DNA from: Thermoplasmatota archaeon
GTDB taxonomy: Archaea > Thermoplasmatota > JAKEGO01 > JANQNJ01
Assembly (NCBI GenBank): GCA_028279645.1
Contig: JANQNJ010000012.1
Coordinates: 1-51,860 of the forward strand
DNA length: 51,860 nucleotides
Direction of reading: 5' to 3'
In this document: one piece after another, positions 18,757-24,477 of the stretch
Layout: every line of letters begins with the position of its first letter
Position numbering within the stretch: the stretch's first letter is position 1
Translations under genes and position numbers: made by a program
The notes under the pieces: generated by a model
The model's database searches: none
Seen by the model: only the letters and a program-made list of their open reading frames with translations
What the model was told of the DNA's origin: nothing

Positions 18757-19191
18757 ATGCCCAAGAAGAACCAACCACTACGGCTACGACGTGACAACCA
18801 CACAGCATCCACCCTGACCGACCACATCGTCTTCTCACCGAAATACAGAAAACCGGTACTGAAGGGCAAGATCGCTCGAGCCTGCGACGAAGAGATCAGA
18901 CGAATATGCCGAAGATTGAATGTACATGTGATCGACCTCGCCGTGACCGAAGATCATGTTCATTTGTTCATCAGATATCCTCCTAAGCTTTCGCCGAGCG
19001 TGATCGCGCAGAGGGTGAAGGGGGTGTCCAGCAGGAGACTGAGGAGGAGGTTCCCGGAGCTGCGGATGTGGTGTCCGAAGGGGTTGTGGGCGCCGGCGTG
19101 CTATCATGGGAGTGTTGGTCAGGGGGTGGAGGTGGTGAGTGCGTATGTGCGGGCGCAGGATCCGTTGCGGTGGGATACGCGGAAAAGGTAG
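18757..19191 (+). mobile_element. tnpA: IS200/IS605-type Y1 transposase TnpA (solo)
   Basis: 144 residues. The HUH motif is HVHLFI (about residues 68-73) and the catalytic tyrosine is in AYVRAQ near the C-terminus, the equivalent of YIxxQ in IS200 TnpA. These enzymes cut and rejoin single-stranded DNA at hairpin-bearing ends. No TnpB gene is adjacent, so this is IS200-like or a REP-associated (RAYT) enzyme. The gene appears intact. It is directly upstream of the cassette-like array, but no direct link is proven. Confidence 0.8.
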
Positions 19192-19207: not shown

Positions 19208-19228
19208 GTGCGGGGTGTATACCCCGTA
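19208..19228. repeat. Hairpin downstream of tnpA (candidate right end)
   Basis: cggggt-gtat-accccg (19211-19226) is a perfect stem 20 bp after the tnpA stop, as expected for an IS200-type end. A partial copy (agtgcggggtatctta) lies at about 19270-19285. A matching left-end hairpin was not found. Confidence 0.45.
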
Positions 19229-19311
19229 CTTGTTCTCGGATAGATCTTGTACTAACAGGCCTTGTAGTTCAGTGCGGGGTATCTTAGATATTGCTTATAT
19301 TAGATGATAGA

Positions 19312-19352
19312 AGATAATATACTGCTTTGATAGATCAATATAGCTGATATAA
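19312..19352 (+). promoter_or_regulatory. Candidate promoter leading into the cassette array
   Basis: Very AT-rich stretch with TATA-like ataatatac (about 19314) and gatataagc (about 19345) just before the left 19-bp repeat remnant. It could drive the whole + strand array. The rest of 19230-19360 shows no gene. Confidence 0.35.
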
Positions 19353-19363
19353 GCTGTATTGTG

Positions 19364-19382
19364 ACTCAGGCGGCGAGCGGAT
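19364..19382 (+). repeat. 19-bp left-end remnant of the cassette repeat
   Basis: ACTCAGGCGGCGAGCGGAT is identical to the last 19 bp of every full repeat copy (at 20041, 20834, 21701 and 23151). No other part of the repeat precedes it. It forms the left edge of the array, 18 bp before the first cassette ORF. Confidence 0.8.
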
Positions 19383-19400: not shown

Positions 19401-19862
19401 ATGAACGAGAAAAAGAAGTATCTTTATGGATTACTCTGTTTCATTTCTGCGCTTGTTATTCCGGTTTTAACCTTCATCGTTACTGGATTGTTAATAGAAT
19501 TACTTGGAGACACCGGTTTTGAAGATATGATCTTCTTTGCTGCAATGTTTTCTCTCCATCCGGTTTTAACCTTAATGGGTTTATACATCATTAGAGGAAC
19601 GAACGGAAAACGAAAAAATCTCAATATGTTTCTTACGGTGATTACGTCATTTTACATTCTAACATATTTCCTTTTAATCGCTATGGAAGCCCATTTCATG
19701 GGATTATCCTATGCAACATATTGTTGGCTAAGCATTGTATTCTTAATATTGCAGATCATGATGCTCATCCTACTAATTGAACGAGTTATCTATTGCTTCG
19801 GAAGATATGATCATTATAGATATCCATTGATGAGCGAGCCGCCCCGGCGGGAACAGACTTAA
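19401..19862 (+). CDS. Cassette 1: four-TM membrane protein
   Basis: 153 residues from ATG 19401, with AGGAAAGGCGAT upstream. Four hydrophobic helices are visible (about 8-32, 42-66, 74-97, 102-130). AT-rich codon use contrasts strongly with the flanking chromosome, suggesting horizontal origin. The last residues, SEPPRREQT, are encoded by the start of the following repeat, and the stop codon lies within it. No family recognised. Confidence 0.7.
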   Translation: MNEKKKYLYGLLCFISALVIPVLTFIVTGLLIELLGDTGFEDMIFFAAMFSLHPVLTLMGLYIIRGTNGKRKNLNMFLTVITSFYILTYFLLIAMEAHFMGLSYATYCWLSIVFLILQIMMLILLIERVIYCFGRYDHYRYPLMSEPPRREQT

Positions 19863-20059
19863 AGCAACGGTAGCCGACCGTGGATGCCTCGCCCCGAACG
19901 AGCCGTCCTTCGAACAACGAGAAGCCAGGCGAGGAGGGGTTGGGTTGATATGAATACCAGTGCCGCCTTAAACCCAATCCCATGGGAGAGGATATCAACC
20001 TCCTAACGACGCCTCGACCGTTCAGGACGGGGAGGTCGTCACTCAGGCGGCGAGCGGAT
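19834..20059 (+). repeat. Cassette repeat copy A (226 bp, full)
   Basis: First full copy. It starts GCGAGCCGCCCCGGCG and ends with the 19-bp ACTCAGG...GGAT block. Internal complementary segments are cctcgcc/ggcgagg, ggggttgggtt/aacccaatccc and ccgt-tcag-gacgg, and terminal gccgcc pairs with ggcggc. It belongs to the same subtype as copy D by its variable middle segment. Confidence 0.9.
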
Positions 20060-20073
20060 AAAAATGTGATTTA

Positions 20074-20622
20074 ATGAACTGTCCTAAATGCGGAAAAACT
20101 TCGCGGCATATTGCTTACTATAATCGATACTATTGTTATCAGTGCAATGAATACTTGAGAAATATCCGCTATAGTATCATTATAGTCGTCATATTTATCG
20201 TATTATTGATCTCTTCTTGTACGGTCCTATATTACTGGGCTGTATCATTTTCTGGGCGTCCTCATGACGCCCCGAGAGGTGCATTATGGGCTCAAAAGTT
20301 TTCCAATAACTGGACAGTAAAGGTAACTACATGTTCCCCTCCTGTGAATTTCAAAGATATCTTGTTCAAGTTTTATCCAGTGAACGGATCCTTTGATTAT
20401 TTCTATTATGAATGGGATCCTTATAATAAAACAACAAAAGAATTATCGTTCGAGAGTGAATTCATATCCATTATCGATCAGAATAATGACGGTAACCTGA
20501 GCAGTGGGGACAGAATAATCCTAATTAATGTAGAGAATAATGGCATTTTTAAAAAGGACGACGTGATGGAAATATATTATAAGCCTACAAAAACTACAAT
20601 AACCCGAGTGGTGCTTGAATAG
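20074..20622 (+). CDS. Cassette 2: zinc-ribbon leader, one TM helix and external domain
   Basis: 182 residues. The N-terminus CPKCGKTSRHIAYYNRYYCYQCNEYL is the window's recurrent zinc-ribbon leader. Then a TM helix (about 31-54) and an extracellular beta domain (about 65-182), which contains DQNNDGNLSSGDRI, a calcium-loop-like sequence. The external part resembles type IV pilin-like domains in archaeal surface proteins (WTVKVT). The start is 14 bp after repeat A. The stop TAG is four bases before repeat B. Confidence 0.7.
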   Translation: MNCPKCGKTSRHIAYYNRYYCYQCNEYLRNIRYSIIIVVIFIVLLISSCTVLYYWAVSFSGRPHDAPRGALWAQKFSNNWTVKVTTCSPPVNFKDILFKFYPVNGSFDYFYYEWDPYNKTTKELSFESEFISIIDQNNDGNLSSGDRIILINVENNGIFKKDDVMEIYYKPTKTTITRVVLE

Positions 20623-20626
20623 CAAA

Positions 20627-20852
20627 GCGAGCCGCCCCGGCGGGAACGATGAATAATTAACGCAAGCCGACCGTGGATGCCTCGCCCCGAACGAGCCGTC
20701 CTTTGAATGACGAAAAACCAGGCGAGGAGGGGTTGGAGCGGAGATGTATAAGCGCCGATCGAGCGAACAATCCCATGGGAGAGGATATCAACGTCCCAAC
20801 GACGCCTCGACCGTTCAGGACGGGGAGGGCGTCACTCAGGCGGCGAGCGGAT
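20627..20852 (+). repeat. Cassette repeat copy B (226 bp, full)
   Basis: Full copy. The middle segment reads gttggagcggagatg..., a different subtype from copies A and D but nearly identical to C. The outer parts match the other copies very closely. It begins four bases after the cassette 2 stop and ends 16 bp before the cassette 3 ATG. Confidence 0.9.
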
Positions 20853-20868
20853 CTAGGATTGATTTGAT

Positions 20869-21495
20869 ATGAAATTGAATAAGCGAGTACTAATTGGATT
20901 CGTCATCATCAATATCCTGATCATAATCTCTGCATCTTATCTTAGTATGATAAATTCACAACAGGATTCTAATGATCGAATACACATTGAGGGAACCTCC
21001 ATAATTTTGAGTACAAGTGGAGGAACTCCAGGAATTCCCCTCCCAATATCAGTTGATAGTACAACTGTTTCAGATCTAGGTAATTCAACTTTTCTTATAA
21101 GAATCACCATTGGAAACTCCAACTTCTCAAATGAGTATCAATTTCATTACAACGATAACATATCAAATCCTCGATTATTTGTAAACGATTCGGCATATCA
21201 AAGAAAGATTCATTGGTATATGGGAATCGAAGCTGAGACATTCTACAACTTTTCCATTGAGGGAATAGTACAATCCGACAATCCCTCGATTAAGAACATT
21301 ACATTTTTCAACGGTACCAATTCAATAAATGGATGGTTCTTTTATCGGCGGAACTATTGGGATGGAGCCCAAATTGACACATTAGAGAATATTGGAATTG
21401 GATCTAATTACATCAATGGTGTCTGGAACAATGAGATTACCGCAAATGGTTTATCATTTGGAATAATAAGTAAATACAACTATTTTCGGGCGTAG
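20869..21495 (+). CDS. Cassette 3: membrane-anchored secreted protein
   Basis: 208 residues from ATG 20869. The N-terminal hydrophobic helix (about 7-27) is a signal anchor; the rest is extracellular, beta-rich and loaded with N-x-S/T sequons (for example NSTFLIRITIGNSNFS). No family is recognised. The coding sequence is AT-rich. The TAG stop (21493-21495) merges with the start of repeat C, whose first base is the G of TAG. Confidence 0.65.
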   Translation: MKLNKRVLIGFVIINILIIISASYLSMINSQQDSNDRIHIEGTSIILSTSGGTPGIPLPISVDSTTVSDLGNSTFLIRITIGNSNFSNEYQFHYNDNISNPRLFVNDSAYQRKIHWYMGIEAETFYNFSIEGIVQSDNPSIKNITFFNGTNSINGWFFYRRNYWDGAQIDTLENIGIGSNYINGVWNNEITANGLSFGIISKYNYFRA

Positions 21496-21719
21496 CGAGC
21501 CGCCCCGGCGGGAACGATGAATAATTGACGTAAGCCGACCGTGGATGCCTCGCCCCGAACGAGCCGTCCTATGTGTGCCGCCAAACCAGGCGAGGAGGGG
21601 TTGGAGCGGAGATGTATAAGCGCCGATCGAACGAACAATCCCATGGGAGAGGATATCGTAACCAAGCGACGCCTCGACCGTTCAGGACGAGGAGGGCGTC
21701 ACTCAGGCGGCGAGCGGAT
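21495..21719 (+). repeat. Cassette repeat copy C (225 bp, full)
   Basis: Full copy of the same subtype as B but one base shorter, in the segment after gatatc. That length change argues against the repeat coding for a protein. It ends 17 bp before the TTG start of cassette 4. Confidence 0.9.
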
Positions 21720-21736: not shown

Positions 21737-22972
21737 TTGCTAACAAAGCATGGAATATTCCTATCGATATTTCTTATTACCCTTTCAGTCTATTGCACAG
21801 TAACTGTTGATGCTAATCCATATTATTCCTTCGAGAGATCAGTGTTTTCTCAAGATTGCAGAATTGATGCAATTGATGTTTCAACAAATGGCACTCATCT
21901 TGTTTTCGGTAATGTATTGTATTCAACAGCACAGGCAATGGATATACAGAGCGGAGTTATTCGATCCCTTCCTCAGTATGACGATGATATTGATGAAGTA
22001 CAATATTCGAAAATGGGCGACCTTGTTGCGATTAGTAATCATGACACTGTGATGCTCTACCAATCCACAACCTTCGATGAGATTGTGGAGTTTAGATTCA
22101 ACGACACCATTTTTGATATTGAGATATCCAATGATGACCGATTACTCGCAATTGGGCATGGTGACGGTCTTTCAATAATATATCTTGAAAACCTCACGTA
22201 TTGGAACATAACAAATGGTCCTGCCGTATTACGTTTGACCTTCTCATATGATAACCATCGATTAGCCTGCTGGACGTCTGACACTGGCGTGATTAGCTTC
22301 TGGAACACACGGACCTGGGCATTAATTCATAACTTCTCCTTCCAATTTCTAAACATCACTCTAAATTCGATAAAAAATCTAATATTTTCACCTACTCATA
22401 ATCACTTATATCTTTATACATGGCTCAATCCAACAACATTCGAAGATATCCATGAGATTCAAGTCCTAGACACAGCAAACTATTCCGTGATTAGGTCATT
22501 GAGACTCTATGATTGGCCTGTGAAAATGATTGTTACAAAAGATGGAAGTCATTTAATGTATATCGGGTTTAACAAATTCATAATCCAACGACTATATGAT
22601 GGTAAATTGATTCAAAAAGTAACACTTAATCAAGAAATCTTAGATTTTGCGATCTGTAGTGATGAAAAGGACATCTATTTATCTCGATATGTAGGTGAAG
22701 ACAAGAGATACAGTTGTAGAATTGAATTATGGGGCCTAGACTTCGACAAGGATGGATGTCCAAATTCGTTGGATGCTTTTCCTCGCGATTCAAACGAATG
22801 CTCTGATTTAGATGGCGATGGTATCGGGGATAATGCGGATCCTATTCCGAGTTTCAAGTATATACGATCTTGGTGGGAGATTGGAGCCATTACCATGTTC
22901 ATTGGCATATTTTTTGTCTGGAAGCACAAGATGAAAAAGCAAAGTGAGCCGCCCCGGCGAAAGCAGACTTAA
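21737..22972 (+). CDS. Cassette 4: secreted WD40-like beta-propeller with calcium-binding repeats
   Basis: 411 residues from TTG 21737, with AAGGTGAT upstream. A signal peptide (about 1-26) precedes seven or so propeller blades with the pattern GHGDGLSIIYLEN and VISFWNTRTWALIHNF. A thrombospondin type 3-like calcium segment follows (DFDKDGCPNSLDAFPRDSNE, DLDGDGIGDNADP, about 333-370), then a TM helix and a short cytoplasmic tail. The final SEPPRRKQT is encoded inside repeat D. It is a surface protein, probably for binding or adhesion. Confidence 0.75.
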   Translation: MLTKHGIFLSIFLITLSVYCTVTVDANPYYSFERSVFSQDCRIDAIDVSTNGTHLVFGNVLYSTAQAMDIQSGVIRSLPQYDDDIDEVQYSKMGDLVAISNHDTVMLYQSTTFDEIVEFRFNDTIFDIEISNDDRLLAIGHGDGLSIIYLENLTYWNITNGPAVLRLTFSYDNHRLACWTSDTGVISFWNTRTWALIHNFSFQFLNITLNSIKNLIFSPTHNHLYLYTWLNPTTFEDIHEIQVLDTANYSVIRSLRLYDWPVKMIVTKDGSHLMYIGFNKFIIQRLYDGKLIQKVTLNQEILDFAICSDEKDIYLSRYVGEDKRYSCRIELWGLDFDKDGCPNSLDAFPRDSNECSDLDGDGIGDNADPIPSFKYIRSWWEIGAITMFIGIFFVWKHKMKKQSEPPRRKQT

Positions 22973-23169
22973 AGCGACGATAGCCGACCGTGGATGCCTC
23001 GCCCCGAACCAGCCGTCCTTTGGGTGTCGAGAAGCCAGGCGAGGAGGGGTTGGGTTGATATACATGGGGACAACGGCTTAAACCCAATCCCATGGGAGAG
23101 GATATCAACCTCCCAACGACGCCTCGACCGTTCAGGACGGGGAGGGCGTCACTCAGGCGGCGAGCGGAT
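22944..23169 (+). repeat. Cassette repeat copy D (226 bp, full)
   Basis: Full copy of the A subtype (ggttgatat and ttaaacccaatccc present), starting GTGAGCC rather than GCGAGCC. Ends 17 bp before ATG 23187. Confidence 0.9.
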
Positions 23170-23186: not shown

Positions 23187-23848
23187 ATGTTTCCAATGGA
23201 TTCACTGGAAGATAGAGTTCAATCCAAGAAAATTGAAACAGAGCAATTCATAGCACGTGAAGAACTATTAAGGAAGCATAAGTCAAATCTACATAAGAAG
23301 CCACGCCCTAATAGACATCTGATTATAGCTATCGTCATAGCTATCATCTTTATTCATGTCTGATATACTATTACCAATATTCTTATCGTTATAATAGGTC
23401 CAATAAAGAATACAGCATTAATATAGAGACAAATGCTACGAATGAATATACTATCTATGTTCCGGTCGCTCAAATGAATAGTAAAGAAATATCTGATGTC
23501 ATGAAGGATATCAATAAGAAGTCAGTCAAGATGATAAACACGAATTATGGAAAAGCGTTAAGGATTACAACAATTGGAAACTTCTCAATTTCATTATCAA
23601 CTTCAAAATACGAGGACGAAGTTAATATTCTTTCAATGCGGTATTTTAATGAAACCCATCCTAGACGGAAGTTAATGATAAGGATTTATTATAATGGGAC
23701 AGAAGACATCCATTTGTCTATCGAATGCAGATCGGATGTATATGGTTATAGATCATCCAGTGATCATAGGGAATGGTGTGATAGGGTCAAGATTTCTGAA
23801 AACGGATGGCATCATATCGAATTTAGGTCTGAAGGTGGCGGTGACTGA
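23187..23848 (+). pseudogene. Cassette 5: frameshifted one-TM membrane protein
   Basis: ATG 23187 opens MFPMDSLEDRVQSKK, a basic stretch, then a TM helix HLIIAIVIAIIFIHV and a stop at 23361-23363. A second frame, open from about 23315, continues from there with YYYQYSYRYN and NIETNATNEYTIYV and joins the track ORF 23474-23848 (MNSKEISDVMKD ...). The two frames differ by one position, so one indel near 23315-23360 would restore a single protein of about 220 residues. Either a true pseudogene or a sequencing error. The external part has no recognisable family. Confidence 0.6.
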
Positions 23849-23869
23849 TAATTAATAAATGCTATTAGA

Positions 23870-23947
23870 GCGAGCCGCCCCGGCGAAAACCGACTGAAAA
23901 CAACGGTAGCCGACCGTGGATGCCTCGTACTCAGGCGGCGAGCGGAT
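23870..23947 (+). repeat. Cassette repeat copy E (78 bp, internally deleted)
   Basis: Keeps the first ~59 bp (to gatgcctcgt) and the last 19 bp (ACTCAGG...GGAT). The retained 3' block begins at the same base as the left-end remnant at 19364. Confidence 0.85.
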
Positions 23948-23997: not shown

Positions 23998-24180
23998 ATG
24001 GCAACAACAATTGCTATTTCACAAGAGACCAAGGAAACACTTCGTTCTTATGGAGAAAAAGGCGAGAGTTACGAGAAGATCATAAACCGTCTCTTGCACG
24101 ATGCAGCTTGGAAGAAATTGGATGAGCGATGGAACAGAATTCTGGAAACTGAAGAATTTATTCCATTGGATGAATTGTAA
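23998..24180 (+). CDS. Cassette 6: antitoxin of RelE-type module
   Basis: 60 residues from ATG 23998; the track start at 23920 lies inside repeat E and is rejected. The sequence TIAISQETKETLRSYGEKGE and SYEKIINRLLHDAAW is a short ribbon-helix-helix-like antitoxin with a Glu-rich C-terminus that could wrap the toxin. The TAA stop overlaps the toxin ATG by one base. RelE partner follows directly. Confidence 0.7.
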   Translation: MATTIAISQETKETLRSYGEKGESYEKIINRLLHDAAWKKLDERWNRILETEEFIPLDEL

Positions 24181-24455
24181 TGTATTCGGTAACTACATCT
24201 GAAACCTTCAGAAAGCAGTTAAGCAAGTTGGAGACTAAGGATAAGAATCGAATAAGAAAGGGTCTTCAATGCCTCTGTGAGGATCCTATAACACCTAGAT
24301 CCGGTGCGGATATTTTACTGATGGAACGTACTGATCCTCCGAAGTATAGGATTCGGATCGGCAATTTCAGGGTTGTATACAGGATCGAGAAGAAGGTCGT
24401 TAAGATTATTGAAGTATTCCCGAGAGGTCGGGGATATCGAATAATAATACCATAG
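24180..24455 (+). CDS. Cassette 6: RelE/ParE-family toxin
   Basis: 91 residues. FRKQLSKLETKDKNRIRKGL, then a KYRIRIGNFRVVYRIE strand pair and a C-terminal VFPRGRGYRI are the RelE/ParE fold signatures. RelE-type toxins usually cleave mRNA at the ribosome. The stop TAG (24453-24455) directly touches repeat F, again with the G of TAG as the first base of the repeat. Confidence 0.8.
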   Translation: MYSVTTSETFRKQLSKLETKDKNRIRKGLQCLCEDPITPRSGADILLMERTDPPKYRIRIGNFRVVYRIEKKVVKIIEVFPRGRGYRIIIP

Positions 24456-24477
24456 CGAGCCGCCCCGACGAGCGGAT
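24455..24477 (+). repeat. Cassette repeat copy F (23 bp, only the two ends)
   Basis: GCGAGCCGCCCCG joined to aCGAGCGGAT: the extreme 5' and 3' ends of the repeat fused with everything between lost. It marks the right end of the array. Confidence 0.75.

Follow-up and report, generated by a model that had tools for sequence, protein, structure and literature searches.

The window analysed here, the 51,860 nucleotides of contig JANQNJ010000012.1 from a Thermoplasmatota archaeon, carries an array of small genes and structured repeats that probably represents an integron-like system, in which gene cassettes enter one fixed site beside the gene for a Y1 TnpA transposase and are joined immediately 5' of an ACT trinucleotide (we put the probability at about 0.58). 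The array comprises four full structured repeats of ~227 bp and two deleted copies, here termed A to F, which alternate with open reading frames (ORFs), all on the plus strand. The GC content is 34–41% for the ORFs, 61–65% for the repeats and 55–56% for the flanks; each ORF stops between -30 and +20 bp of the repeat that follows and begins 14–50 bp past the one before. A blastn search with the repeat found no location other than this array in the metagenome-assembled genome (MAG) that contains the window (G000, 82% complete). Three further MAGs of the same phylum carry arrays, namely G079 (loci C48, C198 and C124), G356 (L141 and L142) and G321 (L137 and L138), and the four MAGs are placed in different families. 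Phylum-wide searches covered 390 genomes, and the incompleteness of the MAGs limits every count of a gene as the only one. Sequence comparison shows the arrays, the conservation of their folded tail, the joint as it appears in starts, internal repeats and two right ends, and that TnpA is physically linked to the arrays. Tandem cassettes in a single orientation behind one entry site were seen in the window, at C48, at L141 and L142, and at L138.

Comparison of array starts with internal repeats strongly supports a defined joint immediately 5' of ACT. All five undecayed starts, from four MAGs, read GTG/ACT (the slash marks the joint): TTGTG/ACTCAGG in the window, AAGTG/ACTTGTG at C48, GACGTG/ACTTGG at both L141 and L142, and GCGTG/ACTTGG at L138. 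The sixth start, C198, is decayed and reads AAGTG/ATTCTG. The internal repeats of the window, G321 and G356 (n = 22) read TC/ACT, in the forms GTC/ACTCAGG, TTC/ACTT and GTC/ACTTG, respectively, whereas those of G079 read CGG/ACT or GGG/GCT. Moreover, two right ends keep a tail without a head, GCATTC/ACACGATTCC at L137 and GCAATC/CGCCCAG at L138. One head was met in both settings: past the joint, the L138 start agrees with an internal repeat of L137 at 30/30 bases, and before it at only 8/30. In some G079 repeats (L007 18289 and 12584, and L019 408) an additional AT-rich hairpin (CTAAAAATGG..CCATTTTTTAG) takes the place of the usual head after ACT.

The window sequence that follows the joint is a 19-base block, ACTCAGGCGGCGAGCGGAT, which on the favoured reading probably forms the front end, or head, of a mobile cassette. 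It occurs exactly at six window sites (19364, 20041, 20834, 21701, 23151 and 23929), where 0.01 exact matches are expected by chance, and no further copy was found in the window with up to three mismatches allowed. The copy at 19364 agrees with each other copy at all 19 bases, at 2–6 of the 20 bases upstream and at 5–11 of the 20 downstream. An earlier, sequence-only reading of the window had noted that the copies at 19364 and 23929 keep this block without its usual left neighbour. Indeed, copies A to D read GTC/ACTCAGG, whereas 19364 reads GTG/ACTCAGG and copy E reads CGT/ACTCAGG. The strand-exchange point that it placed just before ACT is likewise strongly supported, by the GTG/ACT starts, the internal joints (TC/ACT, or GG followed by ACT or GCT) and the two right ends in TC. 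The coincidence pointed to the right place, for reasons that were partly wrong. What had been taken for two independent truncations are, at 19364, the start of the array joined to the first cassette rather than what is left of a truncated repeat, and, in copy E, a single internal deletion. The right endpoint of this deletion could lie a few bases away, since the CGT there may stand for CGT(C)ACT after loss of one C. Deleted copies elsewhere end at other positions (copy F; L049 7885–7945; L048 11570–11465; L027 ~1757; L019 ~3200; L142 ~4230), by inspection some 30 to 120 bases upstream of the head or within it. The same reading had offered truncation endpoints as a breakpoint marker that a spread of endpoints in other genomes would refute; they are scattered, hence not diagnostic, and because of this scatter copy E is a weak second case for the joint. 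Copy F (24454–24477, plus strand) retains only AGCGAGCCGCCCCG and ACGAGCGGAT, a 24-bp relic of both repeat ends that does not show, as had been supposed, that both ends are essential. On the favoured reading, copies E and F would both have arisen simply through loss of internal parts of the folded tail.

The start site lies directly downstream of an intact TnpA gene of IS200/IS605 type (18757–19191, plus strand, 144 aa; PF01797, E = 8e-29; NF033573, 118.5 bits, with the cut-off at 55). This is the only Y1_Tnp gene found in G000; its product matches ISHp608 TnpA structures and by inspection retains the HUH and Tyr motifs. A hairpin motif followed by a TATA-like box lies ~60–80 nt ahead of each start. 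In the window the motif CCTTGTAnnnnnGTGCGGGGTAT occupies 19260–19282 and the TATA-like spacer, a putative promoter that aligns to the C48 start and ends in GTG, occupies 19283–19363, where it adjoins the first head (19364–19382, all on the plus strand). The motif has the same form at C48, and the forms CCTCGTCTGnAAGGnCGGGGTAT in G356 and CCTCGTTTGTAAGGACGAGGTAT in G321. Phylum-wide, CCTTGTAnnnnnGTGCGGGGTAT with at most one mismatch occurs at three sites only, all of them array starts (the window, C48 and C198), and the alignment of the window start region to that of C48 scores above all 1000 dinucleotide shuffles. G356 likewise yielded a single Y1 gene, 57% identical to the window TnpA and in the same position directly upstream of an array start; a broken Y1 gene lies upstream of the C48 start, and at C198 there is only a short stretch resembling the last TnpA codons. 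The proposition that all Y1 genes flank arrays was rejected, as the other G079 Y1 copies examined resemble ordinary solo elements and are closely followed by neither the motif nor a repeat. An array-specific TnpA subfamily was not upheld: the sequences from the window, G356 and G321 (contig C115) have a common WC motif and the latter two group at 0.94, but in a small tree.

Three side observations concern the start motif and TnpA. A second hairpin, GTGCGGGGTGTATACCCCGTAC, lies at 19209–19231, past the stop codon of TnpA and ahead of the start motif, and may be a binding or end site for TnpA. A further Y1 TnpA (L007 7062–7388) lies near the downstream end of the C124 array of G079, on the opposite strand. 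Finally, MAGs of Methanosarcinales and of the anaerobic methanotrophic group ANME-2 (L080, L081, L084, L085 and L089–L098) contain a solitary element with the same hairpin motif (CTTGTACTTAAGTGCGGGGTAT), at up to five copies per MAG; most copies continue as rTG/ACTT and then unrelated sequence, and no array or TnpA was noticed alongside.

The related repeats of G079, of which there are at least a dozen between genes, were reached through a weak DNA match of the window repeat. A covariance model (R1) was built from five G079 copies only and run unfiltered over the window, where its five best matches are exactly repeats A to E (E = 1e-8 to 9e-4), the next match being at 0.74. When the remaining copies were aligned to this model, the hairpin 5' of CCGTGG showed double changes that keep pairing at 7/8 pairs (17 copies), with 31 double-changed cells compared with 11.1 in shuffles and none of 500 shuffles reaching 31; the 17-copy alignment was fitted to the model and is hence biased towards structure. 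A first MAFFT alignment of five sequences already contained 11 double changes compared with 4.4. An enlarged model run phylum-wide added G321 and G356, with evident arrays, and single weak matches in other genomes. When window repeats were aligned directly with those of G079, pair by pair, 1–30 of 1000 shuffles equalled the score, which is weak when taken alone, and blastn with a G079 copy gave only short chance-level matches outside G079 across the phylum, being too insensitive a method. The tails of the window and G079 end in a hairpin the foot of which coincides with the joint or misses it by a single base, whereas the 19-nt head has no evident hairpin by inspection. Searches of Rfam at gathering and relaxed thresholds gave no match for the repeat, and plasmid, phage and viral collections gave only short chance matches. 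An origin as a 23S rRNA fragment (GTGGATGCC) was dropped, as Rfam showed no rRNA match, and a MAFFT and RNAalifold analysis of a mixed repeat set, which misaligned the covarying hairpin, was replaced by the five-copy model. Some G079 copies are solitary, upstream of a gene, and one repeat-bearing G079 contig contains a group II intron domain (L020 14878–15008; RF02003, E = 4.5e-11).

In the mechanism we propose, a cassette would consist of the 19-bp head, an ORF and a ~206-nt folded tail closing in a terminal hairpin, and the fixed attachment site of the hairpin motif and a spacer ending in GTG/, beside the TnpA gene. TnpA would insert cassettes by the single-strand peel-and-paste chemistry of IS200/IS605 elements, cutting and joining at the GTG/ and TC/ joints, with the tail presumably acting as folded DNA. 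Each new cassette would shift the older ones downstream, and the array may be transcribed from the start-site promoter. Entry at GTG/, a tail ending in TC/ and upstream stacking would together yield exactly the three kinds of joint observed: GTG/ACT-head at the first cassette, tail-TC/ACT-head internally, and tail TC/ against arbitrary DNA at the last. Y1-type insertion is favoured because a conservative core exchange, as in integrons or IS110, would leave a shared core at the right end, and the two right ends, both of the cases on which this argument is built, have none.

Several points weigh against this mechanism. The start hairpin is weak when folded as DNA in the window and at C48, and the frequent G-U pairs of the repeat fold would suit RNA no less than DNA. 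No hairpin is evident in the head, whereas the left ends of known IS200/IS605 elements have one. The starts at C198, L142 and L138 have no adjoining TnpA gene; G321 has only a frameshifted TnpA of this kind, away from the start site (C115); and another enzyme may be missing from the incomplete MAGs. Neither excision nor a circle nor cleavage was seen.

Three other explanations were weighed. It is unlikely that a tyrosine recombinase, either an integron IntI or a host XerA-like enzyme, builds the arrays by attI x attC-like exchange with TnpA as a bystander. The layout is that of an integron, and PF00589 proteins were found in all four MAGs (one in G000, five each in G079 and G321, six in G356), yet none lies at the start site of any locus examined; the sole PF00589 protein of G000 is on another contig (C136), so that no integron integrase adjoins the array in this 82% complete MAG. 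Integron attC sites have the cores RYYYAAC and GTTRRRY, with exchange at G/TT. The window repeats lack such paired cores: there is no RYYYAAC on the plus strand and no core at the GTC/ACT joint, and one stray GTTGGGT is present in repeats A and D and missing in B and C. Archaeal integrons do exist (PMC9668308), but the shared core that conservative exchange should leave is missing at the two right ends.

The same absence at the right ends tells against a reading of the repeat as RNA, a guide for a recombinase or nuclease of the IS110 bridge-RNA or TnpB omega-RNA kind that directs insertion at the ACT joint, to which we give an equally small chance. IS110 bridge RNAs are known (PMC11208160), and the large covarying plus-strand structure with its many G-U pairs would suit such a guide, as would the occurrence of the start-site hairpin as a solitary element, mostly with rTG/ACTT directly after it, in ANME and Methanosarcinales MAGs. 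The repeat has no Rfam match, however, and neither IS110 nor TnpB genes came to notice next to the arrays, although no genome-wide search for either was made. Least probable of all is that common intergenic mobile elements, or structured spacers within operons, make up the repeats between immobile ORFs, with the block at 19364 and 23929 produced by chance or by hairpin-slippage deletion. Copies E and F and several deleted copies of G079 and G356 have indeed lost hairpins, the deletion in E runs up to the foot of the terminal hairpin, and the solitary G079 copies would fit. Immobile spacers are already disfavoured by the array starts, which have identical joints in four MAGs of different families, and one head occurs in two contexts. 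Moreover, the cassette ORFs are of 34–41% GC in a genome of 55–56%, lie within -30 to +50 bp of the repeats, and share one strand with them.

Under the favoured reading, capture by a Y1 transposase, the window array contains six cassettes, all on the plus strand. Cassette 1 encodes 153 aa without a Pfam match (19401–19862) and is followed by repeat A (19833–20059; R1, E = 3.5e-7), cassette 2 encodes 182 aa (20074–20622) and is followed by repeat B (20626–20852; E = 1.3e-8), and cassette 3 encodes 208 aa (20869–21495) and is followed by repeat C (21494–21719; E = 2.2e-7). Cassette 4 encodes a beta-propeller-like protein of 411 aa (21737–22972), with weak Pfam propeller matches below the curated cut-offs, and precedes repeat D (22943–23169; E = 3.3e-6). 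Each of these repeats combines a folded tail with the next head (20041–20059, 20834–20852, 21701–21719 and 23151–23169, respectively). The frame of cassette 5 (23187–23848) is interrupted near 23360 and open only from 23474 to 23848, through a frameshift, a pseudogene or an assembly error. Repeat E (23869–23947, 79 bp; E = 9e-4) has an internal deletion and keeps the 5' hairpin and the head (23929–23947). Cassette 6 encodes a DUF7557 antitoxin (23998–24180; PF24434, E = 6.5e-9) and a ParE-family toxin (24180–24455; PF05016, E = 8.6e-8). Toxin-antitoxin and Fic cassettes occur in the window, G079 and G356; cassettes with Fic/Doc, HicBA, PIN-domain and ParE toxin modules lie at L048 12730–10944, L142 6414–6019, L141 6102–5538, L049 7126–7410 and L027 1325–1576. 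In one G356 array the leading cassette carries the gene for a small GTPase of the Arf family (L142 7651–8268, minus strand; PF00025, E = 1.8e-14).

Integrons are the textbook platform of stepwise gene capture. We hold at even odds the wider claim that a Y1 HUH transposase, and not a tyrosine recombinase, independently evolved an integron-like life of single-strand gene capture and expressed arrays in Thermoplasmata-type archaea. If true, this would be a second, unrelated platform, in archaea and on a single-strand transposase, so that cassette capture evolved more than once, and it would account for the way in which small orphan and toxin-antitoxin genes of low GC content cluster in these genomes. 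The GTG/ACT starts, the TC/ACT joints and the covariance model provide a searchable signature. No description of such arrays was found in the literature searched; preprints and most subscription journals lay outside it, so a prior description is possible.

Among known systems, IS200/IS605 elements (TnpA, ISHp608, ISDra2) are alike in their Y1 TnpA with HUH and Tyr motifs, in sharp ends without target duplication and in a hairpin near the right-hand joint. They have a short subterminal hairpin at each end, close to where they are cleaved, whereas here the left end is a short head without an evident hairpin, a large structure of several hairpins makes up the right end, and cargo genes stack at one fixed site rather than many. 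In the repetitive extragenic palindrome (REP)/RAYT systems a Y1 protein is likewise linked to many structured repeats; here, however, the window TnpA is of IS200 type and scores far below the RAYT cut-off (23.5 bits with NF047646, which requires 80), and the repeats, of ~227 bp, bound genes. The haloarchaeal palindrome-associated transposable elements (PATEs) are dispersed palindrome elements too short to encode a transposase (PMC3119063). They resemble the present units as transposase-free elements with IS605-like near-terminal palindromes, and differ in that the units described here carry genes, stack in tandem at one site and fold on one side only. Integrons, including those of archaea (PMC9668308), share the one-orientation array of single-gene cassettes that look promoter-less, each with a folded tail like a recombination site, as well as the entry site beside an enzyme gene, the platform/cassette hybrid at the first joint and the many toxin-antitoxin cassettes. 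Here, in contrast, no IntI lies beside the start, the enzyme gene encodes a Y1 HUH transposase, the tail is ~206 nt long with conserved sequence, and the right ends have no shared core.
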